A stretch of 11,967 nucleotides of DNA from positions 1 to 11,967 of the forward strand of contig CAMYNZ010000235.1 in assembly GCA_947259865.1 (NCBI GenBank), read 5' to 3'. Shown piece by piece: positions 1 through 11,354 of this stretch. How positions within the stretch are numbered: position 1 is the stretch's first letter; every line of letters starts with the position of its first letter. The notes beneath the pieces were generated by a model. That model did no database searches. It was not told the origin of the DNA and saw nothing but the letters and a program-made list of their open reading frames with translations. The DNA comes from an uncultured Desulfobacterales bacterium. Its GTDB lineage: Bacteria > Desulfobacterota > Desulfobacteria > Desulfobacterales > G020354645. The position numbers and the translations under genes were made by a program.

Positions 1-274
1 AGCCGATGGCTGCGCCCAGAATCAGAAGAAGAATCGGAAATACATAAATAAAAAAACAGGCTTTGAGAAGTGAGGTGGTTTCGAAGTTGAGAACGATCCG
101 ATCGCCGACCCTGGCACCGGCATTATTGAGGGCTTCAACCTCCATCTCGCCACCGCCACCCAGCGCATTGCAAGAACCTCTTGCACTGCAGGATATTCAG
201 GCACCGGTTTTGGAAGTTTTTACCCAGGCAGTGTCAGAACCGGTTTTTATTACAATACCCTGTTCGGTGGCCAT
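1..274 (-). CDS. RseC/MucC-family membrane protein, probable selenoprotein, 3' end outside window
   Basis: RseC-family proteins are small inner-membrane proteins with an N-terminal cysteine motif, associated with Rnf-like complexes and SoxR reduction. Reading from ATG at 274, with GGAG 6 nt upstream, and translating TGA at codon 26 as Sec gives an uninterrupted frame of 91 codons to the window edge. The segment K-T-G-A-U26-I-S-C29-S-A-R-G-S-C35 aligns with the family pattern A-C-x-S-C-x5-C (E. coli RseC has S-C-S-S-C-A-S-R-A-G-C), so Sec replaces the first cysteine. A Gly-rich stretch and a soluble beta-type segment ending in GDRIVLNFE follow. A hydrophobic helix starts near residue 70 (LLKACFFIYVFPILLLILG), as in RseC. 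It lies 28 bp after the RnfB/GltD fusion and is probably the last or a late gene of that operon. If the TGA were a real stop, only a 25-residue peptide would result. Family assignment is from memory of the motif and topology. Sec decoding is inferred from motif position plus the downstream hairpin. Confidence 0.8.
164..190 (-). promoter_or_regulatory. Bacterial SECIS-like hairpin after the TGA codon
   Basis: On the minus strand the arms TGCAGTGCAAGA (190-179) and TCTTGCAATGCG (175-164) pair in 11 of 12 positions, with one G/A mismatch and one terminal T-G wobble. They enclose a 3-nt GGT loop. The loop begins 18 nt after the TGA. Known bacterial SECIS elements sit in the coding region just after UGA, with the apical loop roughly 16-37 nt downstream and a G among the first loop bases; this one fits. 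I see no clear bulged U like that of the E. coli fdhF element. Function is inferred. Confidence 0.7.
197..199 (-). other. In-frame TGA read as selenocysteine (codon 26 of the RseC-like gene)
   Basis: The TGA falls exactly at the first position of the RseC CxxC redox motif, giving U-x-x-C. The reading frame stays open and family-like on both sides, which argues against a random nonsense mutation. Recoding would need SelA, SelB and tRNA-Sec encoded elsewhere in the genome; none is in this window. Confidence 0.75.
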
Positions 275-302
275 AAAATGCTCCGATCGCTTAATATTAC
301 TA

Positions 303-2381
303 TTAACCAGTTTCCTGCCAACCCTCTTCGCGCATATAGCAAATCAAACCGCAACGCAGACATCGATCTGCCTCATCGCGAGCCATGTCCTCGGTGAATC
401 CTCTTTCGATTTCCCCGCATACCGGGAGATCTTTGGGCGGACATAACGGCATGAGTTGGCGTCTGCCTTCGGCGACAGCATGGATATGATCGACATTATG
501 GACATCAGATTCAGCGCTGACGACATTTTCGGAAAGTGCCAGTGATATGCCATACATAACTTCATGGATGGAAGCGGCTGCCCGGCGTCCGGCACCAATC
601 GCTTTGATAGCGCCACTGTAATCACTGAGAGTATCCCCCCTGGCAAACAGGCCGGTTTGCGTCCGAAAGGCCGGTTGTTTGTAGGGTTCAATCGCCACCC
701 AGCCGTGGGGCTCGCTTTCAGTCTCCCTTTCCGGGTTATCCTGGCTTTCTTCAGATCCCAGCCGCTCGGATTCAGCTCTGGCAAATATCAACTCCGGAAA
801 CCGGCCGGCGGCAAAGATCAGGGTCTTGGCCGGTATTTGCTCTTTTTCAAAGGAGTTCAGATCGACTTTTTCCAGCGCGGTCAGCTGGTCTTTTTCACCC
901 CACAGGCGCGAGATGCCGCTGTCGAAGACAATCCGGATATCCTGACCGACATCTTCAACGTCCGAATCGGTAACCGGGCTGTTCTCCAGCGACTCCCGGT
1001 AAAGTATGGTTATATTTTTAGCACCCTGTGCCCGGCATTTGCGAACAGCCTCCAGCGCGAGTTTCCCGCCGCCGACAATTACAACCGGTGATTGACAGGT
1101 AATCGGGCTGTTTTCCGAGCTACAGTGTTTTATAAAATCCAAAAGTAAATAGGCGCCGGCTATGGGCGACTCGGCCACAGCACCGCCCCTTCTGGCAATC
1201 CGGCTGTCCCAGCCGCCCAGGGCCAAAAATACCGCCTCAAATCCCTGATCAAGCAGGGAATCGATGGTGAAGTCTTTGCCGAGCAACTGGTTGGTCCGGG
1301 CTTCAACCCCCATCTCCAGAATTCCGTCAATATCCCAATCCAAAATTTCCTGCGGAAGTCGATAGCGGTCAATAGCGCTGCGGAGCAGACCACCCAGTTT
1401 ATCGGTTGCTTCGAAAACGGTGGTGTCGTGGCCCAGACGGGCCGCAAAAAAAGCCGTCGATAAACCCTCAACCCCGGCCCCGACAACAGCAATCTTGCGA
1501 CCGCTGTCAGGTGCCTTGTAAGGCAAGACGCGTTCACCGCTATCCAATTCATAATCCGCCGCATAACGTTTTAAATAATTTATGGCCACCGGTTCATCAA
1601 TATAATTACGCCGGCACTCCAGTTCACAGGGTCGCGGGCATATTCTGCCGATGACAGCAGGAAACGGGTTTCTCTCCTTGATAATTTGAACGGCACGACG
1701 ATAATCCCCCTTGGAAATTTGACGGATATACTCGCAAATATTGATTCCGGCCGGGCAGGCCCGCTGGCAGGGGGTAGTGCATTCGTTGGTGGTATACTCT
1801 TTGAGGATTCGCCGGGTGACGGAGGACAGGTTAATGATATATTTGGGGCATACCCGTTCGCAGGTGCCGCAACCGGTGCATTTTTTTTCACTCACGACCG
1901 GCAGACCTGCCGATCCCATTGAAATGGCATCAAAAGGACAAACCCTGACACAGGTCCCAAGCCCTAAACATCCGATGTTACACACCTTCATACCGCCGCT
2001 TAGCAGGGCCACCGCCCGACAGTCATTCATACCATCATAAATATATTTAAGATCCGCATCCTGAACCCCGTAGGTGCATCCGGGCCGTGCAATATCAGGC
2101 TCCTTGGCCTCTACCCTGACTCCCATAATTTCGGCAATTTCTTCGGCGACTTCGGCACCGGCTGCCACACAAGAGTTGGGCGCCGCTCTGCCGGCCACGA
2201 TAGCTTCGGCATTGGCACTACAGCCGGGCAGTCCACAACCACCGCAATTAGCGCCCGGCAGTGCATCCTCGACAGACAGTATTTTCGGATCAACGTAGAC
2301 ATAGAATATTTTTGAGGCCAGCGCCAATCCAATTCCTACAAAAAGTCCTAAACCACCCAACATAAAAAGTGCTTCTTGCAT
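303..2381 (-). CDS. RnfB-like Fe-S module fused to GltD/NfnB-type NAD(P)-FAD oxidoreductase (Stn-type transhydrogenase catalytic subunit)
   Basis: This 692-residue fusion has a hydrophobic N-terminal helix (about 6-28) as in RnfB, then the RnfB-type cluster motif C46-x2-C49-x4-C54-x16-C71. Two [4Fe-4S] ferredoxin motifs follow (C134/138/144/148 and C168/171/174/178). A GltD-type N-terminal Fe-S region comes next (C201, C205, C209, then C248, C252, C256), then an FAD fold (VVGAGVEG, about 299-306), a second nucleotide fold (VIVGGGKLA, about 434-442), the FAD-closing segment GLFARGD (577-583), and C-terminal CLRCGLIC (674-681). The GltD part resembles NfnB and the GltD-like subunit of the Sporomusa-type Nfn (Stn), so a role in NADH/ferredoxin/NADP electron bifurcation is likely. 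The helix suggests it anchors the NuoE/NuoF-like partners, 33 bp upstream in the same operon, to the membrane. GAGG sits 7 nt before the ATG. Domain calls are solid; substrate and reaction direction are inferred. Confidence 0.85.
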   Translation of the reverse strand: MQEALFMLGGLGLFVGIGLALASKIFYVYVDPKILSVEDALPGANCGGCGLPGCSANAEAIVAGRAAPNSCVAAGAEVAEEIAEIMGVRVEAKEPDIARPGCTYGVQDADLKYIYDGMNDCRAVALLSGGMKVCNIGCLGLGTCVRVCPFDAISMGSAGLPVVSEKKCTGCGTCERVCPKYIINLSSVTRRILKEYTTNECTTPCQRACPAGINICEYIRQISKGDYRRAVQIIKERNPFPAVIGRICPRPCELECRRNYIDEPVAINYLKRYAADYELDSGERVLPYKAPDSGRKIAVVGAGVEGLSTAFFAARLGHDTTVFEATDKLGGLLRSAIDRYRLPQEILDWDIDGILEMGVEARTNQLLGKDFTIDSLLDQGFEAVFLALGGWDSRIARRGGAVAESPIAGAYLLLDFIKHCSSENSPITCQSPVVIVGGGKLALEAVRKCRAQGAKNITILYRESLENSPVTDSDVEDVGQDIRIVFDSGISRLWGEKDQLTALEKVDLNSFEKEQIPAKTLIFAAGRFPELIFARAESERLGSEESQDNPERETESEPHGWVAIEPYKQPAFRTQTGLFARGDTLSDYSGAIKAIGAGRRAAASIHEVMYGISLALSENVVSAESDVHNVDHIHAVAEGRRQLMPLCPPKDLPVCGEIERGFTEDMARDEADRCLRCGLICYMREEGWQETG

Positions 2382-2414: not shown

Positions 2415-4202
2415 TTATAAGATGGCATCGAACTTACATTTTTCATAGCACGTCAGACATTTAATACATTTATCCTTCTCGATTCTGGCAACCTCTTTTT
2501 TCTTCCAGGTAATCGCTTCCACCGGACAGCCCCGGTAACAAAGCCCGCATTTGGTGCAGATCTCCGGAATGACTTCAAATTTTAAAAGGGCCACGCAGCG
2601 CTTGGCCGGACACTTTTTGTCGTGAATATGGGCATCGAATTCATCCTTGAAATAGCGCAATGTGGAAAGTACGGGATTGGGGCCGGTTTGTCCCAAACCG
2701 CATAAAGACGCTTCTTTAATAACCCCGGAGAGCAGCATTAAGGTGTCTATATCCTCCGGTTTACCCTTGCCGTCACATATTTTATCCAGTATTTGCAAAA
2801 GGCGCCGGGTACCTTCCCGGCAGGGCGTGCACTTACCACAGGATTCATCCTGCACAAAATCCATAAAAAAGCGGGCCATGTCAACCATACAGGTGTTTTC
2901 GTCCATGACGATCACACCCCCGGATCCCATGATAGCGCCGACCTTGGCAATTTCTTCATAATCCACGGGTGTGTCCAGATGCTGTTCCGGTATGCAGCCC
3001 CCCGAGGGGCCTCCGAGTTGGACAGCCTTGAATTTCTTTTTCTTGGGAATACCGCCGCCGATATCAAAGATTATGTTTCTCAGTGTCGTACCCATGGGCA
3101 CTTCCACCAATCCGATGTTGTTTACATCCCCGGAAAGGGCGAACACCTTGGTACCCTTGCTGGTTTCGGTCCCGACGCTGGCATACCATTCGCCCCCGTG
3201 TAAGATGATCTGGGCAACATTGGCCAGTGTTTCAACATTGTTCAAAACGGTGGGTTTATCCCACAAGCCTTTATGCGCCGGAAACGGGGGGCGGGGACGC
3301 GGCATCCCCCGCTTTCCCTCAATAGATCGCATGAGGGCTGTTTCTTCACCACAAACAAAAGCACCGGCACCCTGATAAATACCGATATCGAAACTAAACC
3401 CGGTACCGAGTATATCTTCGCCCAGCAGACCGTATTCCCGGGCCTGCTGGATGGCAATACCGAGACGGCGCACCGCCAGAGGATATTCGGTCCTGGCGTA
3501 GATATATCCCTGGTGTGCATTGATCGCCTTAGCCGCAATGATCATGCCTTCGAGTACGGTATGCGGATCTGCTTCAAGTATACTGCGGTCCATAAAAGCG
3601 CCGGGATCTCCTTCATCCGCGTTACAGAGCACATACTTGTGTTCTCCCGGGCTTTTGCTGGCAAACTCCCATTTGAGTCCGGTGGGAAATCCGGCACCAC
3701 CTCGGCCCCGCAGGCCAGAAATCTTCATCTCTTCGATGATCTGTTCGGGAGTCATTTCCTTCAGGGCTTTGGCTACTCCAAAATAACCATCCGTGGCGAT
3801 GTACTCATCGATAACCTCCGGATCAATAGCACCCTTGTTGCGCATGGCCCAAAACATCTGACTGGCGAAAAAGGGAATTTCAGACATCGTGGGGATGGTT
3901 TCATGGGAAGCAGGTTCGGTATAAAAGAGCTTTTTTACCGGTCGGCCTTTAAGAAAGTGCTCTTCCACCAGGTGAGGAACATCTTTAGGATTAAGCTTCT
4001 GATAAAATATACCATCGGGTTGAACCAGCATCACCGGGCCGACAGCACAAAACCCGTTGCAGCCCGTCTCAATGATTTTAACCTCGTCAGCCAGCCCCTG
4101 TTGTTGAAGTTCCTTGGAAAGGGCCTGCTCGAATTCGGCAGTCCCTGAAGAGTGGCACCCAGTGCCACCACATAACATTAATTGCGTTCTGGGTTTTATC
4201 AT
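2415..4202 (-). CDS. NuoF/HndC/HydB-like NADH-binding flavoprotein subunit of a bifurcating complex
   Basis: The 595-residue protein has the extended architecture of HndC/HydB rather than plain NuoF. Residues 1-90 form a thioredoxin-like [2Fe-2S] domain (C11, C16, C48, C52). The FMN/NADH core follows, with GLRGRGGAGFPTGLKW (163-178), NADEGDPGAF (194-203) and GAGAFVCGEETALMRSIEG (278-296), then an SLBB-like region. Next is the NuoF [4Fe-4S] site (C455, C458, C461, C501). The C-terminal double [4Fe-4S] domain has C549/552/555/559 and C579/582/585/589. All expected ligands are present. It should oxidise or reduce NAD(H) at FMN and pass electrons through its clusters to the GltD-type partner. AGGA lies 7 nt before the ATG, and the gene starts 9 bp after the NuoE-like stop, indicating translational coupling. 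The same subunit type serves [FeFe] hydrogenases and formate dehydrogenases; the partner here is inferred from the operon. Confidence 0.92.
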   Translation of the reverse strand: MIKPRTQLMLCGGTGCHSSGTAEFEQALSKELQQQGLADEVKIIETGCNGFCAVGPVMLVQPDGIFYQKLNPKDVPHLVEEHFLKGRPVKKLFYTEPASHETIPTMSEIPFFASQMFWAMRNKGAIDPEVIDEYIATDGYFGVAKALKEMTPEQIIEEMKISGLRGRGGAGFPTGLKWEFASKSPGEHKYVLCNADEGDPGAFMDRSILEADPHTVLEGMIIAAKAINAHQGYIYARTEYPLAVRRLGIAIQQAREYGLLGEDILGTGFSFDIGIYQGAGAFVCGEETALMRSIEGKRGMPRPRPPFPAHKGLWDKPTVLNNVETLANVAQIILHGGEWYASVGTETSKGTKVFALSGDVNNIGLVEVPMGTTLRNIIFDIGGGIPKKKKFKAVQLGGPSGGCIPEQHLDTPVDYEEIAKVGAIMGSGGVIVMDENTCMVDMARFFMDFVQDESCGKCTPCREGTRRLLQILDKICDGKGKPEDIDTLMLLSGVIKEASLCGLGQTGPNPVLSTLRYFKDEFDAHIHDKKCPAKRCVALLKFEVIPEICTKCGLCYRGCPVEAITWKKKEVARIEKDKCIKCLTCYEKCKFDAIL

Positions 4203-4211
4203 CCTGGTATC

Positions 4212-4706
4212 CTATTCATATCTTTCGAGAATATCGATGACTTTATCTGAAGAAACAGCGCCATGGGTGTCACCGTCAACAACCACAACAGGTGCCAGAC
4301 CGCAGGCCCCCAGGCATCTGACGGCTTCCAGCGAAAATCGCCTGTCTGGGGTCGTTTGCCCTTCTTCCAGCTGATACTGATTGGAAACGCGAACCATGAC
4401 TTCCTTGATGCCCTTAACGTAACATGCGGTTCCCAGGCAGCACTTTATGGTATGCCTGCCTTTGGGCTCCATCGAAAAAAGGGCATAAAAAGTTGCAACG
4501 CCGAATACCTCACTGCGAGAAATGGTGAGCCCCTCACTGATATAATCAATCAGCTCCAACGGCAGATAACCGACAATGTCCTGACATTCTCTCAAGACCG
4601 TGATGACCGCCCCAGGTGTTGATTTATGGGTCGCTATAACCGCATTAATTTTTTCCAGCATTTCTTCGGAGATATCACTGTGTAGTAGCGGGCTGCCAAT
4701 TTTCAT
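4212..4706 (-). CDS. NuoE/HndA/HydC-like [2Fe-2S] subunit
   Basis: This 164-residue protein has the normal length and fold of the NuoE 24-kDa family: a helical N-terminal half and a thioredoxin-like C-terminal half. The [2Fe-2S] ligands C90-x4-C95 and C131-x3-C135 are all present. The segment SEVFGVATFYALFSMEPKG is characteristic of the family. It would partner the NuoF-like subunit encoded 9 bp downstream to form the NADH-handling core of the complex. GAGGGA lies about 7 nt before the ATG. It is the first gene of the minus-strand operon and faces a divergent control region. Family assignment is very secure; the physiological complex (Stn-type transhydrogenase) is inferred from the third gene. 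Confidence 0.93.
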   Translation of the reverse strand: MKIGSPLLHSDISEEMLEKINAVIATHKSTPGAVITVLRECQDIVGYLPLELIDYISEGLTISRSEVFGVATFYALFSMEPKGRHTIKCCLGTACYVKGIKEVMVRVSNQYQLEEGQTTPDRRFSLEAVRCLGACGLAPVVVVDGDTHGAVSSDKVIDILERYE

Positions 4707-4915: not shown

Positions 4916-5026
4916 GATTTATGAGAAGAAGGCGCTAATCTTTTATCTTTACTGATGTTTAGAGTCTGTCAGCGATTTTGAAGGCAGCTGTGAAAACTAT
5001 GGGCTGTGGGTAGGGCGCTTAGGAAA

Positions 5027-5380
5027 ATGAAAATAAACGAAATTGTGGAGGCCCTGGATGCTTCCCTTCTGGCTGGCAAGGACCAGATAAACAAAGACAT
5101 TACAAAATGCGGCGCCAGCGATCTCATGAGTGACATTCTGGCCGGATTTTCTGAGGGAAGTGTCCTGCTCACCGGATTGACAACCGTCCAGGTGATACGT
5201 ACGGCGATCGTTGCCGGCATCGGAGCCATCGTGTTTGTGCGGGGGAAAATGCCCCCTCCCGAAGTACTCGAACTGGCTGAATCTCAGAAATTACCGTTAA
5301 TATCTTCTCCGTATTCGATGTTCGTGGCCTGCGGCAAATTGCATGCCTGCAATCTGACGGGTCTGGATGGCGCCAGATAG
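5027..5380 (+). CDS. DRTGG-domain protein (first copy)
   Basis: This small protein (117 residues from ATG 5027) belongs to the stand-alone DRTGG-like family often found beside [FeFe]-hydrogenase and NuoE/NuoF gene sets. Typical features are the start MKINEIVEALDASLLAG, the middle SDLMSDILAGFSEGSVLLTGLTT with QVIRTA, and a C-terminal part with FVRGK and PLISSPYSMF. DRTGG domains occur in phosphotransacetylases and next to CBS domains and are suspected ligand-binding regulatory modules. The biochemical role of these stand-alone forms is not known to me. It is the first gene downstream of the strong plus-strand promoter. An in-frame GTG at 5006 could extend it by 7 residues, but family start positions favour the ATG, even though AGG is only about 3 nt away; GGGTAGGG at 5008-5015 is the alternative ribosome site. 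Confidence 0.75.
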   Translation: MKINEIVEALDASLLAGKDQINKDITKCGASDLMSDILAGFSEGSVLLTGLTTVQVIRTAIVAGIGAIVFVRGKMPPPEVLELAESQKLPLISSPYSMFVACGKLHACNLTGLDGAR

Positions 5381-5435
5381 CTAAAGCGCATCAGGGCTTC
5401 AAAAGTTGCATGTGCAACCGGATGTGCGCCGGTGA

Positions 5436-5460
5436 CCATCCCGCGGCTCGCTCGGGATGG
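5436..5460 (+). repeat. Strong GC-rich hairpin, 8-bp stem
   Basis: CCATCCCG (5436-5443) and CGGGATGG (5453-5460) pair perfectly around a 9-nt loop. The sequence after it (GTTGAATTT) lacks a run of T, so it is not a standard intrinsic terminator. It could be an attenuator, RNA-stability element or part of a repeat. Confidence 0.45.
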
Positions 5461-5526
5461 GTTGAATTTCCGATCGGGGGGCGAGACAAACGGAAAACGT
5501 CGGTTCGCGATCGCGGCAGGTAGGAT

Positions 5527-5543
5527 CGGGTGACGTGCACCCG
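5527..5543 (+). repeat. GC-rich hairpin, 6-bp stem
   Basis: CGGGTG (5527-5532) and CACCCG (5538-5543) pair perfectly around a 5-nt loop (ACGTG). It is the third dyad of the spacer. No poly-T follows. Confidence 0.4.
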
Positions 5544-5732
5544 GTTTGGACGCAAGAAGCCGCTGCCAAGAAATGGACACAATTACCCGAAGGAAGCCGG
5601 ACGGATGCTATCTGAAATTTGAAAGCTGAAATGCAGGGGTCGTCCAAGGTCCACATCCTCCTTTCTCTCTGATACGCATTTTGCCTCCCATCAATGGTAT
5701 CCGGCCGATAAACAAGTGATGGGTAGCTGATG

Positions 5733-5756
5733 CACCGCCTAAAATTAGACACCGCC
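5733..5756 (+). repeat. Direct repeat of CACCGCC just upstream of the ATPase pseudogene
   Basis: CACCGCC at 5733-5739 and again at 5750-5756, each followed by (T)AAAATT, gives two similar half-units 17 nt apart. This spacing places both on nearly the same helix face, as for tandem operator half-sites, 23-46 nt before the start codon. It may equally be chance or the edge of an inserted element. Confidence 0.3.
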
Positions 5757-5778
5757 AAAATTGTCGGGAGTATCCGGA

Positions 5779-6151
5779 ATGTCGGCGCTCAAAAAAAGTT
5801 ATCATATCAATAAAAGTGATTTCATCCACGCCGGTGAGGCATCTATCCATGTCAAAAATTTGCTCAAAACCTTGAACTATAATCCGGCATTAATTCGGCG
5901 GGTAGCCATCTGCGGCTATGAAGCGGAGATGAATGTGGTCATGCACGGTGGCGATGGAAAGCTGGGTGTAAAAATAGATACCCATACGCTGGTAATGGAG
6001 ATATCAGATAACGGACCCGGGATTGAAGATATTGAAAAAGCGCATGGGCCTGCCGAACATGAAAAAGAATGCAGACCACGTAGACCTGGCATCTGAAAAC
6101 GGGAAAGGCACGCAAGTTGTTATGATTTTTCAAACAGGCCTGGAGACGTAA
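5779..6151 (+). pseudogene. Anti-sigma/HATPase-type ATP-binding protein, disrupted by an internal deletion and frameshift
   Basis: From ATG 5779 (GGGAG 8 nt upstream) the protein follows the small GHKL-ATPase family usually encoded at this position: N-box YEAEMNVVMH (residues 47-56) and G1 box ISDNGPGIEDIEKA (75-88). After residue 88 the frame reads into nonsense and stops at 6096. The missing C terminus continues in the next frame from ATG 6044 to TAA 6149-6151: MGLPNMKKNADHVDLASENG, then a GTQVV-type ending. Family members carry about 20 residues between these parts (the ATP lid leading into GxGMGL), and these are absent. The simplest reading is a deletion of some 60 bp that also shifted the frame at about 6042. 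The GGAG used by the next gene lies inside this tail, so the region is still the intact leader of the downstream gene. An assembly error is possible. Confidence 0.75.
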
Positions 6152-6152
6152 T

Positions 6153-7448
6153 TTGAATCCTGAACCTACACCCACATGTTTTATCCATTTTGACAAAAAT
6201 CTTTGCAACCGTTGCATCGATTGTGTGAGGGCCTGCCCGACCAAAGCCATCCGAATTAGGAACGATCAAACCATTCGTATGGTCGACCAATGCATTGGAT
6301 GCGGTGATTGCATCCGAGTTTGCCCAAAAGGGGCGATGACCGCGGCCACAGCATCGCTCGCATCCCTGGAAAAAGACAAGATTCCTGTGGCCCTTGTCCA
6401 TCCGACCCTCTATGCCCAGTTTCCAGGGATTGCGCCAATGGATCTGCTTGCGGCTGTCAAGAACCTGGGATTTCACCATGTCATGGATATGTCTCATTAT
6501 ATTGAGATGTTTCAATGCGCCACCGAGGAGTTCATCAGACGCAATAGGGTCTCACAGCAGGCGCCATGGCCTCTGATCTCACCCTTCTGCCCGGTGGCTA
6601 TCCACCTTATCACAGTTATGTTTCCAAGTCTTTTACACCATGTCCTGCCGATTATGAGACCCGTCGCTCTGGCCGGCAGGGAAATCAAGCGGAGCCTTGC
6701 AAAGGAGCACAGGGTATCAGAAGACGAAGTGGTTATCTATCATATCACCCCTAACCGGGCTTCTTATCCATTTGAACGATCCTACGTGGACAGAGCTTTG
6801 GGCATAAACGACGTCTATGCGCAACTGATCCGACAAATCGAACAATTCGAGAATAATGATTCGATTTCCTCGCTCCAGGATCAATTCAACATCACGGTGA
6901 CCGGAAACGGTCTGATGTGGGCGATATCCGGCGGCGAGATCGCCGGCCTCAACATTGAGTCAACCCTTGCGGTATCGGGAATCAGGGAGACCATGGCCTA
7001 TTTGGAAAAAATCGAGCTCGGCCTTTTTGGTGATACCGAATATATAGAATTGCGGACTTGCCCGGATGGATGCGTGGGCGGTGTGCTCACCGGTATTGAC
7101 AGACACCTGGCCAAGAGTGCCGTCTTGCGCATGGTTCCCAAGCTCGATTCCGGCAGACGGCTGCCGCGAAAAAAAATACTTCGCCTTTATGAGAAAGGTC
7201 GATTTATGGCCGAAACGATGCCGTCCGATCTGGAAAAGTTATTCGGCACCAAAAAAGAGCATATGTCGCTGGAATCGTTGCAGAAGGTAGAAAACCTTTT
7301 GAAAAGCATTAACGGTATGAACTGTGCTGCTTGCGGTTCACCGGATTGCAGAACTTTTTGCGAAGATGTTGTCATGGGAAAAGCGGCTTTAAGGGACTGT
7401 CTTTTGATTTGGGCCCGCGAAAACGGTGGCGACACCTCCGGTCCGTGA
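6153..7448 (+). CDS. [FeFe]-hydrogenase-like Fe-S protein with degenerate H-cluster site (probable redox sensor)
   Basis: This 431-residue protein starts at TTG 6153, with GGAG (6142-6145) 7 nt upstream. Two [4Fe-4S] motifs (C18/21/24/28 and C47/50/53/57) are followed by a hydrogenase large-subunit C-terminal-like domain. A C-terminal cluster motif, C391-x2-C394-x4-C399-x3-C403, lies at 391-403. Of the H-cluster motifs, L1 is reduced to SPFCP (only C146). L2 reads HITPNRAS, where catalytic or sensory forms have a PC motif, so the ligand cysteine is replaced by N201. L3 keeps both cysteines, TCPDGCVGG (C303, C307). It resembles the sensory-type hydrogenase relatives found in this accessory module but lacks their PAS or phosphatase extension. 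Loss of L2 makes a normal H-cluster and H2 chemistry unlikely. A role as Fe-S redox sensor or electron carrier is inferred. Confidence 0.82.
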   Translation: MNPEPTPTCFIHFDKNLCNRCIDCVRACPTKAIRIRNDQTIRMVDQCIGCGDCIRVCPKGAMTAATASLASLEKDKIPVALVHPTLYAQFPGIAPMDLLAAVKNLGFHHVMDMSHYIEMFQCATEEFIRRNRVSQQAPWPLISPFCPVAIHLITVMFPSLLHHVLPIMRPVALAGREIKRSLAKEHRVSEDEVVIYHITPNRASYPFERSYVDRALGINDVYAQLIRQIEQFENNDSISSLQDQFNITVTGNGLMWAISGGEIAGLNIESTLAVSGIRETMAYLEKIELGLFGDTEYIELRTCPDGCVGGVLTGIDRHLAKSAVLRMVPKLDSGRRLPRKKILRLYEKGRFMAETMPSDLEKLFGTKKEHMSLESLQKVENLLKSINGMNCAACGSPDCRTFCEDVVMGKAALRDCLLIWARENGGDTSGP

Positions 7449-7531
7449 CCCGGTCATCGGATGGAATTGCACTAAGACACTTAGATGATAGTCGATACAC
7501 ATTTCGATTGATATCGGAAGGACGGTGCAAG

Positions 7532-7879
7532 ATGACAGTAAAAGATCTGGTGGAACAATTTGGATTGCAGGTGGCGGCAGGCAAAAAAGGCCTCAGCCGA
7601 CCGGTGCGGGATGGGTATTGCGGCGATCTTTTGAGCGACGTTATGGCAAATGCCCCTGAAAGCTGTGTGTGGTTAACCGTGCAGGGCCATCAAAATATCG
7701 TGGCGGTGGCGGTTTTGAAAGAAATGGCAGCCATGATCCTCACGGGCGGACAGTCAGCGGATGAGGAAACAATTGCAAAAGCCGATGCAGAGGGTATCCC
7801 CATTCTTCAATGGGCCGGTTCAGCCTTTGATCTGGCGGGTCGCATATATGCAATGGGCATCGGTCATGCCAACGATTAA
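7532..7879 (+). CDS. DRTGG-domain protein (second copy)
   Basis: The protein has 115 residues from ATG 7532, with AAGGA 9 nt upstream. The family-typical start MTVKDLVEQFGLQVAAG supports this start over upstream in-frame codons, which lie inside the preceding gene. It has the same general plan as the first DRTGG-like protein: an N-terminal KDLVE helix, GYCGDLLSDVMANAPESCVWLT, a central AVLKEMAAMILTGG, and a C-terminal IPILQWAGSAFDLAGRIYAMG. The pair differ enough to be ancient paralogs rather than a recent duplication. The gene lies 83 bp after the hydrogenase-like gene and 42 bp before the PHP gene. Ligand and function are unknown; a small-molecule-binding regulatory role is inferred from DRTGG domains elsewhere. 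Confidence 0.75.
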   Translation: MTVKDLVEQFGLQVAAGKKGLSRPVRDGYCGDLLSDVMANAPESCVWLTVQGHQNIVAVAVLKEMAAMILTGGQSADEETIAKADAEGIPILQWAGSAFDLAGRIYAMGIGHAND

Positions 7880-7921
7880 ACCGGTCATGGCAGAGAGGGT
7901 TCGGTATAAGGTAAACAAACG

Positions 7922-8656
7922 TTGAAACAATATACGGCAGATCTCCACGTCCATACATGCCTATCTCCGTGCTCCGATTGGGATATGAGTCCCCAAAAAA
8001 TCGTCCAAAAAAGCCTCAGAAAAAATTTGGATATCATTGCCATCTGTGATCATAATTCTGCCCAAAATACGGAAGCGGCTGTGCGTTCAGGAAAAAAGCA
8101 CGGTATCTGTGTAATTCCGGGGATGGAAATCTGCTCCAAGGAGGAGGTCCATCTTTTGGGACTTTTCGGGAGCCTTGAAAATACCTTGGCGATGCAGGAA
8201 TATGTTTACCCGCACCTGAAAGGGGAAAACCAACCCGCAGTATTCGGACACCAGGTCATTGTGAACGAACACGATGAGGTCCTCGGTGAGAATTCCCGCC
8301 TACTGATCGGGGCGACCGAATTAAGTCTCCACGATATCGCGGTCAAAATTCATGATTTGGGGGGAGTGTGCATTGCCTCCCACGTTGACCGGCCGGCATT
8401 CGGTGTTATAAACCAGCTCGGCTTTATCCCGCCGGATCTGTTACTCGACGGGGTTGAAGTTTCGTATCGGGTACCGCTTGGGGGGGCCCGGGAAAAGATC
8501 CCCGGCATGATGAATCTGCCGTGTATCTCATCTTCCGATGCTCATTTCCTGGCCGATATTGGTAAGGCAAAGACCGTGTTTGTTTTGGCAGCCCCGACTT
8601 TAGCTGAAATTCGTCTTGCGCTCAAAAGCCAAAACGGAAGAAGGATAATAGCCTAA
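7922..8656 (+). CDS. PHP-domain metal-dependent phosphoesterase
   Basis: This 244-residue protein starts at TTG 7922, with AAGG about 10 nt upstream. The PHP metal site is complete: H9-x-H11 in ADLHVHTCLSPCSD, D43-H44 in AICDHNSAQN, E69 with H77, H154 in ASHVDRP, and D206-x-H208 in SSDAH. PHP enzymes hydrolyse phosphomonoesters or phosphodiesters, including nucleotides, using two or three metal ions. This stand-alone type is a regular member of hydrogenase-linked accessory modules, but its substrate is not known to me. It ends directly against the start of the second ATPase gene (0 bp gap), implying coupled synthesis. Hydrolysis of a signalling nucleotide would fit the ligand-binding neighbours, but that is speculation. 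Confidence 0.88.
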   Translation: MKQYTADLHVHTCLSPCSDWDMSPQKIVQKSLRKNLDIIAICDHNSAQNTEAAVRSGKKHGICVIPGMEICSKEEVHLLGLFGSLENTLAMQEYVYPHLKGENQPAVFGHQVIVNEHDEVLGENSRLLIGATELSLHDIAVKIHDLGGVCIASHVDRPAFGVINQLGFIPPDLLLDGVEVSYRVPLGGAREKIPGMMNLPCISSSDAHFLADIGKAKTVFVLAAPTLAEIRLALKSQNGRRIIA

Positions 8657-9205
8657 TTGCGGGAAATTGCACTTCACATTTTAGACGTTGCCGAGAACGG
8701 AATTGCCGCAGGCGCCAGCTGTATCCGCATATATGCAGAAGAGGCTCGCATTAAAAATTTCCTGAAAGTCATAATCGAAGACAACGGCAAAGGGGTCCCG
8801 TTGGAGAAGATCAATACATTAACGGATCCATTTGTCACCAGCCGAACCACACGCAGGGTCGGCTTGGGCCTTCCGCTGCTGGAAGCCGCAGCAAGGCGTT
8901 GTGACGGAAAACTGTCGATTGAATCCGAACCCGGCACGGGAACTCGAATTACGGCCACTTTCCGCTATGACCACATCGATCGGGCGCCGATGGGAGATAT
9001 GACCGGGACCCTGATGACATTAATCATGGGTAACACCGAGGTTGACTTTGTCTACAGCCACCGCATAGACAGCCATCATTTTGATCTGGACACCCGGGAA
9101 ATAAAAGAGGAACTCGGGCCGCTTTACATGACAGATCCCGCGGTAATGTATCATTTAAAACAAACGATAAGAACACAGCTTGAACAATTAGAGTCCGACG
9201 TATAA
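8657..9205 (+). CDS. Stand-alone GHKL/histidine-kinase-like ATPase
   Basis: The 182-residue protein starts at TTG 8657, immediately after the PHP stop, with AAGGA about 11 nt upstream inside the PHP gene. The ATP-binding boxes are in order: N-box AENG with N14, G1 DNGKGVP (42-48), G2 VGLGLPL (68-74) and the GTGTRI segment (93-98). The helix with the phospho-accepting histidine is absent, so this is not a conventional sensor kinase. A C-terminal extension of about 80 residues after the ATPase domain is specific to this hydrogenase-linked subfamily. It could act as a protein kinase or ATP-dependent regulator for the ferredoxin or hydrogenase-like neighbour; this is inference. Unlike the first ATPase of the module, it is intact. 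Confidence 0.85.
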   Translation: MREIALHILDVAENGIAAGASCIRIYAEEARIKNFLKVIIEDNGKGVPLEKINTLTDPFVTSRTTRRVGLGLPLLEAAARRCDGKLSIESEPGTGTRITATFRYDHIDRAPMGDMTGTLMTLIMGNTEVDFVYSHRIDSHHFDLDTREIKEELGPLYMTDPAVMYHLKQTIRTQLEQLESDV

Positions 9206-9230
9206 TTATCCGGAGAAAGGAAACAGAGGC

Positions 9231-9599
9231 ATGGCCAAACTAACGGTTGAAGACCTAAAAAGAATAAAAGAAAAAACATCCAGAGATACATCGGTACGGC
9301 ACGGCCCCGCCAAGGTGAAAATAACGGTCCATATGGGAACCTGCGGCATTGCGGCCGGTGCCCGTGAAGTAATGGCGTCTCTTATGGAGGAGATGGCCCG
9401 AACAGACCGACAGGACATTCGGGTAGTAAATTCCGGATGTATGGGAATGTGCAGCAGCGAACCCAATGTAACCGTAGCGTTTGAAGAACAAGAACCCATC
9501 GTATATCAATTTATGGATGCCAACAAGATGCGGCAGGTCTTTAAGCGCCATGTCCTTTTGGGCGAAGCCCAAACAGATTTTGCTCTGGGAAAAATTTAG
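9231..9599 (+). CDS. HndB-like thioredoxin-fold [2Fe-2S] ferredoxin
   Basis: The 122-residue protein has GGAGAAAGGA ending 9 nt before ATG 9231. An N-terminal charged helix (1-28) precedes a thioredoxin-like ferredoxin domain with KITVHMGTCGIAAGAREVM (C38) and NSGCMGMCSSEPNVTV (C70, C74). Only three cysteines are visible where the NuoE-type site uses four; MGTCGIAAGA with a single cysteine seems usual for this subfamily, so the fourth ligand is unclear. Homologs such as HndB accompany HndA/HndC/HndD hydrogenases as small electron-transfer or regulatory subunits. Here it closes the accessory module, 25 bp after the ATPase, and its domain is duplicated in the fusion protein at 10054-10797. It probably interacts with the NuoE/NuoF-like complex encoded on the opposite arm, which is inferred. 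Confidence 0.88.
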   Translation: MAKLTVEDLKRIKEKTSRDTSVRHGPAKVKITVHMGTCGIAAGAREVMASLMEEMARTDRQDIRVVNSGCMGMCSSEPNVTVAFEEQEPIVYQFMDANKMRQVFKRHVLLGEAQTDFALGKI

Positions 9600-9601
9600 T
9601 A

Positions 9602-9630
9602 TGCATAAAATATCATTCCCTTTTTATGCA
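9602..9630 (+). terminator. Inverted repeat after the ferredoxin gene, possible weak terminator
   Basis: TGCATAAAA (9602-9610) and TTTTATGCA (9622-9630) pair perfectly around an 11-nt loop, starting 3 nt after the stop codon. The stem is AT-rich and no T-run follows, so termination would be weak; 3'-end RNA protection is an alternative. Confidence 0.3.
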
Positions 9631-9716
9631 CGATCTATTAGAGTAGAAAATGTATTGGATCACCAGACGGCTATAATTTGCAATCCAACAACCAATAGGT
9701 TATACCCTAAATGAGC

Positions 9717-9842
9717 GTAAACAAAATGGAGAATTTATATAAAAAACCTAATTTATTATATTCGTTAAGCAACATGTAGGCTGTTTACAACGCTTGCATA
9801 AGTGAAATATAAATTGTCCAAAAACCAACCCATTTTGTTTAC
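9717..9842 (+). repeat. 126-bp segment bounded by a 13-bp perfect inverted repeat
   Basis: GTAAACAAAATGG (9717-9729) and CCATTTTGTTTAC (9830-9842) are exact reverse complements, 100 bp apart. Terminal inverted repeats of this size around a short AT-rich core resemble a miniature transposable element, but no target-site duplication is visible and no transposase is present. A long-range RNA or DNA structure is the alternative. Confidence 0.4.
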
Positions 9843-9853
9843 CCTTCGGGAAA

Positions 9854-9951
9854 GCCACGCCAGAGGCGGGCAAGCCGATGTTTATCCGCCAGAGATCTTT
9901 GGCGGAATACCCCATCTTCCGCGTTGCCCAGGGCTCGCAGTAGTATACTAC
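9854..9951 (+). repeat. Cluster of three dyads, candidate interspersed intergenic repeat
   Basis: Three structures follow each other: GCC-(A)-CGCC/GGCGGGC at 9854-9871 with an AGA loop, TCCGCCA/TGGCGGA at 9885-9906 with an 8-nt loop, and the 12-bp palindrome GTAGTATACTAC at 9940-9951. The sequence CGCCAGAG occurs in both of the first two. Dense, GC-richer dyads in an otherwise AT-rich spacer are typical of repeated extragenic elements, but only one copy is present in this window. Confidence 0.35.
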
Positions 9952-10053
9952 GACTTCGCCCTTGGACGCCTTGAATCTGGGGCACCCTCGACTTTCGCTC
10001 AATCAGGGTTATGGTTTTTTTAAGTAGTTATTGAATCAAATGAGGAGGGAGAA

Positions 10054-10797
10054 ATGACTAGTCTCGACTTTCTGCGGAATGTTGAGGTGCTCAAGGGCCT
10101 GGTCGACAACAAGCTTACCGGTATCCAGGACCATTGTTACGAAAAGGACTACCGGCACAATGAAAAACTTTTCAGCGATGAAGATGACGCAACCTGTTTG
10201 TGGATAATGCGAAAGGGACAGGTCGATCTGCGTTTTGATCTGCCGGCTCGCCCGACATCAGCAAAAAACACCATCTCGTCGCTGTCAAAATATATGACGT
10301 TTGGTTGGTCAGGCCTTGTAGCCCCCTATAAATACAGACTATCGGCGTACTGTGCCACTGAATTCTGTAGGGTCATCCAGATAGAGAGAGAAAAGTTGGT
10401 TAAGATTTTCGAAGAGGATTCAAAAATCGGTTATGTGGTGATGTCGAATCTAGTAGAAATTATCGGCAAACGGTTCCACCAACTGCAGGATTCGGCCTGG
10501 ATATCTCCCTACGCCAGCATAAAGATTATAGTACATCTGGCAACCTGCGGAATCGCTGCAGGGGCGCGCGAAGTCATGAGTGCTCTCATGGATGAAATGG
10601 CGCTCACCGACCGTCTGGACATCCGGATTTTGAGCGGTGGTTGTATCGGAAAGTGTGAGACCGAGCCAAACGTCACGATCGAGATCGAAGGAGAAGATCC
10701 GGTGGTTTACCAGAATATGAATCCTGATAAAATGCGCAAGGTTTTCAAAAAACACATACTTGAGGGTCAAGTCCAGGCTGAATACATCCTTGGTTAG
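10054..10797 (+). CDS. Cyclic-nucleotide-binding-fold protein fused to an HndB-like [2Fe-2S] ferredoxin domain
   Basis: This 247-residue protein has a strong ribosome site (AGGAGGGAG, ending 3 nt before ATG 10054). Residues 1-146 form a CRP-like beta-barrel domain with its following helix. Residues 155-247 are a thioredoxin-like ferredoxin domain closely matching the stand-alone protein at 9231-9599 (shared TCGIAAGAREVM, EPNVT, KMR-VFK), with C165, C197 and C201. There is no helix-turn-helix. The barrel is colinear with the paralog at 10872-11354 but more degenerate: turn glycines are lost (E43, M81) and the phosphate-cassette region reads FGWSGLVAPYKYRLSA, with Trp-Ser after the Gly where cAMP binders have Glu. 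C100 and C105 are shared with the paralog. The combination suggests a sensor coupling ligand or redox state to the Fe-S electron-transfer system. Domain calls are firm, function inferred. Confidence 0.85.
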   Translation: MTSLDFLRNVEVLKGLVDNKLTGIQDHCYEKDYRHNEKLFSDEDDATCLWIMRKGQVDLRFDLPARPTSAKNTISSLSKYMTFGWSGLVAPYKYRLSAYCATEFCRVIQIEREKLVKIFEEDSKIGYVVMSNLVEIIGKRFHQLQDSAWISPYASIKIIVHLATCGIAAGAREVMSALMDEMALTDRLDIRILSGGCIGKCETEPNVTIEIEGEDPVVYQNMNPDKMRKVFKKHILEGQVQAEYILG

Positions 10798-10801
10798 ATT
10801 T

Positions 10802-10839
10802 GGCATCGTTATAGCGATACCCTTTGGGTTTGGTTTTTT
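10802..10839 (+). terminator. Possible weak terminator after the fusion gene
   Basis: A dyad (GG-c-ATCG / CGAT-a-CC, 10802-10821) and a small ACCC-TTT-GGGT hairpin (10819-10829) precede TTTGG and a run of six T (10834-10839). Stems are short and the T-run is offset, so at most partial termination is expected before the paralog gene. Confidence 0.3.
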
Positions 10840-10871
10840 GAAACTTTTGATTCGAACTAGAGGAGGCGGCT

Positions 10872-11354
10872 ATGATCAGTATTGACTTTTTAGAGAAGGT
10901 CGAAGTCTTTCAGGGTCTTGACTCTGAACAGCTTGCAGGAATCAAGGATTGCTGCCGCCAGGAGGAATTTAAGCATGAAACGATACTGATGGAAGAAGGC
11001 GAAGAGGCAAATCACCTTTGGGTAGTCAAAGAGGGTCGAGTGGATCTGCGCTTCGACCTTCCGGGGCTCACCACTTCTGAAGAAAGCACTATTTCCTCGA
11101 TTTTGGAGGCAGGCGCTTTTGGATGGTCGAGCTTTGTACCACCTTATAAGTATCGACTTGCGGGCTATTGTGCCAGCAAAAGTTGCAGATTAATCAAGAT
11201 CGAAAAAGAATGCCTGATCAATCTGTTCGAAAAAGAACCAAGCATCGGTTATGTGGTGATGTCGAGTATAGCCACCGTGGTCGGCAGACGGTTTCATCGA
11301 TTACAGGGAGAAGCCGCCAAAAGCAGGGGCCATGACATTATGGGCGGCTGGTAA
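10872..11354 (+). CDS. Cyclic-nucleotide-binding-fold protein, stand-alone paralog
   Basis: The 160-residue protein has AGGAGG 5 nt before ATG 10872. It contains a single CRP-like barrel plus a C-terminal helix and no DNA-binding domain. It is colinear with residues 1-146 of the preceding fusion protein (shared DFL-x2-VEV, GRVDLRFDLP versus GQVDLRFDLP, PPYKYRL versus APYKYRL, IGYVVMS), showing a tandem duplication. It keeps the turn glycines (G43, G81) lost in the fusion copy, but its ligand cassette (FGWSSFVPPYKYRLAG) also has Trp-Ser in place of the Gly-Glu of cAMP receptors. C100 and C105 are conserved between the two. It ends in a short polar tail where the fusion carries the ferredoxin domain. 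It may form mixed oligomers with the fusion protein; ligand unknown. Confidence 0.8.
   Translation: MISIDFLEKVEVFQGLDSEQLAGIKDCCRQEEFKHETILMEEGEEANHLWVVKEGRVDLRFDLPGLTTSEESTISSILEAGAFGWSSFVPPYKYRLAGYCASKSCRLIKIEKECLINLFEKEPSIGYVVMSSIATVVGRRFHRLQGEAAKSRGHDIMGGW

Follow-up and report, generated by a model that had tools for sequence, protein, structure and literature searches.

At one edge of a contig from an uncultured Desulfobacterales bacterium, a relative of sulfate reducers, a TGA codon interrupts a reading frame of the RseC family, and the locus hence raises the question of whether this codon ends translation or is read as selenocysteine (Sec). The window—the whole stretch of 11,967 nucleotides analyzed here—very probably encodes an RseC-family selenoprotein: UGA-26 would be read as Sec by means of SelB, tRNA-Sec, and a hairpin, and the product would serve the oxidoreductase encoded upstream.

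The rseC reading frame and its in-frame TGA

The first 91 codons of rseC occupy positions 1..274 of the reverse strand, with the ATG at 274–272; the gene continues beyond the window edge, and its C-terminal third lies outside the window. The in-frame TGA, the proposed Sec codon, is codon 26 (197..199, reverse strand), and the frame stays open past it. With TGA read as Sec, the protein features U26, C29, and C35 and, hence, the motif U-X2-C-X5-C. A 133-residue translation with TGA taken as a residue matches PF04246 (RseC_MucC) with 78.6 bits against a gathering score of 24.4 (E 5.2e-22). All of the 120 homologs considered (the best 120 of 474 matches) carry Cys in the column of residue 26, and the same 120 have Cys at residues 29 and 35 as well. 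The earlier note had described an RseC-family frame split by TGA 199–197 at the first motif Cys, and this description stands as judged by the frame, the PF04246 match, and the Cys in all 120 homologs listed.

A general change of the code, with TGA as a sense codon throughout the organism and not as Sec here, would likewise leave the frame open—this openness being all that speaks for it—but the column is Cys and never Trp in the 120 homologs listed, TGA ends one of the 11 window ORFs checked, and none of the other genes calls for read-through. This reading was rejected on the Cys column and the stop usage of the window ORFs and is barely conceivable.

The window protein departs from nearly constant residues at two further positions: Ser28, which is Gly in 111/120 homologs, and Asn36, which is His in 116/120 (the best 120 of 474 in both cases). 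Both departures fall inside the folded stretch of the window rseC, and RNA pairing may have driven them. The equivalog NF008115 of NCBIfam, which represents the Escherichia coli-type SoxR-reducing RseC at a cut-off of 184 bits, gives 29.4 bits for the partial window protein and 44.3 bits, also below the cut-off, for the full-length relative P0003. RseC/MucC proteins are expected to have a pair of membrane helices and a C-terminal portion in the cytoplasm; for P0003, the predicted structure model features long helices at residues 67–94 and 102–131, the window gene itself being partial. A fold search yielded nothing at E 0.001 or better, with 0.074 as the best value.

Recurrence of TGA in other RseC genes

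Scanning genome contigs with an alignment of RseC turned up 64 loci, which were selected without regard to stops. In-frame stops occur in three of them and are all TGA: at residue 26 in L032 and at residue 29 in L030 and L041. In L064, the N-terminal part of RseC is absent. In addition, an even draw of 389 genomes from the order was used for codon-pattern searches, the matches of which were checked by translating 39 loci. The UxxC pattern matched in 15/389 genomes, one of the matches being an RseC (G003, the genome of L032), and the CxxU pattern in 22/389, three being RseC (G002, G004, and G172, the last with L188). The patterns demand W-V/I/M-K-T ahead of the motif, so Sec forms can escape them. 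L188 came from such a TGA-demanding pattern; L030, L032, and L041 did not. A direct family search found one TGA within the RseC of each of G002, G003, G004, and G172 and none within that of G001, G104, and G159. Among these other genomes, only G003 has TGA at the window's own column, the other three having it at the second CxxC Cys. PF04246 is present in 333 of the 389 genomes and few carry the TGA; Sec forms are therefore a small minority.

Taken over 99 RseC sources (the 64 loci, 30 further RseC loci, four others, and the window, with some mutual copies), internal stops occur in five and are all TGA: at residue 26 in the window and L032 and at residue 29 in L030, L041, and L188. Sec at the third motif Cys was found in none of the 99. 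The expected exchange of Cys and Sec at the TGA column was thus encountered: Cys in 120/120 homologs listed, with TGA there or at the neighboring Cys in other organisms. A scan of viral contigs gave 24 pattern matches and zero confirmed ones. Genome G003 carries, beside the Sec-form L032, a second and diverged rseC (L198) with Cys at all three positions; from their sequences, Sec and Cys paralogs of RseC appear to coexist within this genome.

Database relatives that start at Met44

The next in-frame Met codon behind the TGA, Met44 (143..145, reverse strand), is where a set of database relatives starts. With the C-terminal 100 residues of the L001 protein (P0003) as query, 299 matches were obtained, of which the best 120 were considered. 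The seven that follow P0003, namely P0123–P0129, are all 100 residues long and all begin at Met44 (proteins only)—as gene callers would probably produce behind a stop, going by these sequences. P0127 is identical to window residues 44–91 at 47 of 48 positions and represents 30 member sequences from three sources on three contigs, the longest of which measures 15.8 kb; P0129 comes from a contig of 54.8 kb. Among the matches listed, P0137, P0139, P0146, P0153, P0156, P0157, P0158, and P0165 likewise begin at Met44. These eight belong to other clades, some lie on contigs of 7–11 kb, and they may be Sec forms or fragments.

These relatives bear on a sequencing or assembly error, by which codon 26 would truly be TGC or TGT. 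The TGA is one base from either Cys codon, and the window may contain another defect; against this, P0127 (47/48 identical, three sources) and six other relatives begin at Met44. Since near-identical proteins from other assemblies begin at the same place, an error is disfavored and very unlikely. Gene callers lose the N-terminal domain, and databases therefore carry Sec-form RseC as 100-residue pieces; because callers cut these genes, protein databases are short of Sec forms.

Tree and selection

The RseC tree was computed from 83 distinct rows with L064 left out and has few columns and a bootstrap that is not settled. On it, four changes are needed to account for the Sec label, and four are also required by the supported branches. 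L001, a Cys form, groups with the window, and L030 and L041 likewise have Cys forms as neighbors; L188 belongs to a different clade, and the position of L032 is unresolved. That Sec stands at two different Cys favors separate gains over one old Sec.

Behind the TGA, the window and L001 differ by 21 synonymous and 12 nonsynonymous codon differences over 65 codons (dN 0.12, dS 0.90; NG86). L030 and L041, in both of which the TGA is kept, differ there by 38 synonymous and 10 nonsynonymous ones over 113 codons (dN 0.049, dS 0.744; NG86). Before the TGA, dN is 0.251 and dS 1.898 for window and L001 (25 codons) and 0.07 and 0.409 for L030 and L041 (28 codons). Before as well as behind the TGA, the rseC frame behaves like coding sequence, and purifying selection persists past this codon.

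An ordinary nonsense mutation in a decaying rseC is quite unlikely on these grounds. Under the standard code, translation would end after 25 codons, and the window holds one more gene that seems disrupted, the HATPase-like ORF at 5761. Such decay is contradicted by the purifying selection behind the TGA, by like TGAs in four other genomes at CxxC Cys columns only, and by close relatives that keep a conserved reading behind the cut. It is exceedingly unlikely that the two halves are separate functional pieces, with translation restarting at Met44 so that the sole product is a 100-residue protein lacking the Cys motif. The next in-frame Met is indeed conserved and gene callers begin there, but the 25 codons before the TGA are constrained (dN 0.25, dS 1.90 for window and L001; few codons), the start region of the RseC family is intact, and E. 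coli RseC without its N-terminal domain (the C90 fragment) loses function according to the part of PMC11729352 available.

The selenoprotein reading of rseC proposed in the earlier note is therefore supported: by the recurrence of TGA, the tree, the relatives starting at Met44, and the selection behind the TGA. The sequences themselves show a recoding signature that recurs, as well as selection both before and behind the UGA. For L001, a return from Sec to Cys is plausible because seven close relatives start late, at Met44.

Candidate SECIS hairpin

The proposed bacterial SECIS is a hairpin at 164..190 on the reverse strand, with the arms 190–179 and 175–164, a mismatch at 186/168, and a GGU loop at 178–176. 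Its geometry is as had been claimed: 11 of 12 positions are paired, and 18 nt separate the UGA from the loop, at −11.6 kcal/mol. It also lies within the bacterial range, satisfying the bSECIS constraints as quoted in the accessible part of PMC13188914. With the peptide fixed and the window's codon usage, 3.0% of 3000 synonymous-codon draws were equally stable and qualifying; for the other Sec genes, these fractions are 0.027 (L041), 0.072 (L030), 0.177 (L032), and 0.191 (L188). The combined p is 0.007 for the window, L041, L032, and L188, L030 being omitted as the sister of L041. The simple stems of L032 (−4.5 kcal/mol) and L188 (−6.5 kcal/mol) fall short of the −7.5 level, and hairpins of −7.5 kcal/mol or lower occur behind non-TGA codons in 8/63 cases at residue 26 and in 5/62 at residue 29. 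The 61-nt fold of the window lies just 1.2 sd below shuffles. The 45-nt stretch as a whole has an unremarkable folding energy, which was therefore not counted as evidence, and an Rfam search of window positions 1–400 gave one chance match (E 8).

The window and L001 share 22 identical bases over the hairpin core, their longest run, at 205/273 identical bases overall. Under codon permutation, the run does not reach significance (p 0.10). L001 is able to form the 6-bp core stem of the window hairpin, and 8/98 sources likewise are, counting the window, L032, and copies. SECIS-like remnants have been described behind Cys codons, according to the part of PMC1794560 available; because the 22-nt run is not significant, a remnant SECIS in L001 stays a lead. 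The Cys genes L006, L082, L097, and L100 encode ARSSC and can fold the 6-bp core stem of the window hairpin; the codons of the motif therefore readily give a hairpin without Sec. The window hairpin alone is suggestive as a Sec signal. Across the Sec genes, the hairpins are only modestly unusual—compatible with SECIS and somewhat enriched—and the case rests elsewhere.

Selenocysteine machinery in related genomes

The machinery was searched for in G001, the nearest relative, and in G002, G003, and G004, none of which is the host's own genome. selA and selD lie above the cut-off in four of four, each selD with an in-frame TGA of its own (loci L166–L169), and a tRNA-Sec with the anticodon tca is present in all four as well. 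selB lies above the cut-off in three of the four, with nothing above it in the Sec genome G002. G172, the fourth Sec genome, was tested for selB alone, and selB was found; of the five genomes, the nearest relative and the Sec genomes together, four hence have a selB above the cut-off. In G104 and G159, which belong to the family of G002/G004 and L030/L041 and have a Cys RseC, no selB lies above the cut-off. These absences of selB are weak, since the genomes may be incomplete.

Gene neighborhood

The upstream genes lie on the reverse strand as rseC does. The order is that of NuoE- and NuoF-like genes, followed by an RnfB-like oxidoreductase gene and then rseC: a NuoE-like 2Fe-2S thioredoxin-fold subunit (4212..4706); a NuoF-like subunit with Complex1_51K, NADH_4Fe-4S, and ferredoxin domains (2415..4202); and RnfB-like Fe-S domains fused to Fer4_20 and pyridine-nucleotide oxidoreductase domains (303..2381), the stop of which lies 28 nt ahead of rseC. 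L041 has the identical upstream domain set before rseC, and in L188 and L032 a cut upstream gene carries an oxidoreductase domain. The upstream ORFs of L030 and L025 (691 and 693 residues) are judged to be the same oxidoreductase on length and start only. In L001, a different gene on the opposite strand lies upstream of rseC. A biotin ligase-like gene lies downstream of rseC in L041 and L001.

The remainder of the window holds one run of ORFs on the forward strand (5006–11354) with DRTGG-domain, Fe-hydrogenase-like (PF02906), PHP, and HATPase ORFs as well as 2Fe-2S thioredoxin-fold-like and cyclic-nucleotide-binding ones; it looks like a redox or signaling cluster. The HATPase-like ORF at 5761–6164 (forward strand) stops early at 6096, and a stretch that by eye resembles the remainder of such a domain (MGLPNMKKNAD...) follows in the next frame. 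Either this gene seems to carry a frameshift, or an indel or assembly defect is present here in the window.

Proposed function and significance

We infer Sec insertion itself, as well as the partner and the chemistry of the Sec form. SelB and tRNA-Sec would decode UGA codon 26 as Sec, aided by the downstream hairpin, and the product would carry U-X2-C-X5-C where its relatives carry C-X2-C-X5-C. It would be a small inner-membrane protein with the motif in a cytoplasmic N-terminal domain and would work for the RnfB-like/NAD(P) oxidoreductase encoded directly upstream. By analogy, the most likely role of the Sec form is that of a membrane partner to this RnfB-like oxidoreductase. Its motif would hold either an Fe-S cluster in which a selenolate is one of the ligands or a redox pair of selenol and thiol. 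The three-Cys motif of an E. coli RseC fragment binds an oxygen-sensitive [4Fe-4S] cluster, as the accessible part of the published account has it. The earlier note had foreseen a fast redox step, which would be one option; by the published work on E. coli RseC, a role as Fe-S ligand is no less likely. Sec at residue 26 or 29 would suit a cluster ligand no less than a thiol oxidoreductase. It is possible, if rather doubtful, that these are natural selenolate-ligated Fe-S clusters in which ligand 26 or 29 turned into Sec separately, tuning the membrane partner of an RnfB-type oxidoreductase. A literature search for Sec ligands of Fe-S clusters returned only a formate dehydrogenase paper, available in part.

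If the selenoprotein reading holds, RseC joins the prokaryotic selenoproteome, and selenium enters the RNF/RSX electron-transfer setting. The role of RseC is itself unsettled between regulator, complex partner, and Fe-S protein. Sec occurs at two motif Cys across lineages with close Cys relatives, and these forms therefore provide natural pairs for the question of ligand versus thiol switch.

Comparison with known systems

The earlier note did not count RseC among the established selenoprotein families, and this holds for the review table and the literature searched. RseC/PF04246 is absent from the 119 selenoprotein families and subfamilies in Table 1 of PMC13188914. RseC, SoxR, and MucC are unmentioned in the main texts, supplements aside, of PMC13188914, PMC9312934, PMC1794560, and PMC2398784, as are RseC and SoxR in PMC12013277 and PMC8318568 (supplements aside). 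Literature searches linking RseC, PF04246, or SoxR reducing with selenoprotein or selenocysteine gave no such report. Within this table and literature, the Sec variant of the RseC family is new; the family itself is known.

E. coli RseC, of the SoxR-reducing system, features CX2CX5C with its conserved Cys numbered 26, 29, and 35 and shares with the window PF04246 and these motif positions; it is likewise a small membrane protein linked to an Rnf/Rsx-type system (PMC11729352, as far as available). In contrast to it, the window protein has Sec for Cys26 and, as a partial protein, scores far under the NF008115 cut-off, and its gene sits in an RnfB-like/NuoE/NuoF-like cluster. In the anaerobe Clostridium ljungdahlii, a PF04246 gene adjoins the RNF genes; this rseC is required for autotrophy and raises rnf expression. 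It differs in being described as a positive rnf regulator, Sec not being mentioned in the accessible portion of the paper (PMC9124969, for all three statements). The bacterial selenoprotein families of the UxxC/CxxU type (PMC13188914) resemble the Sec form of RseC in three respects: Sec stands for one Cys of CxxC, a SECIS lies behind it, and homologs with Cys exist.
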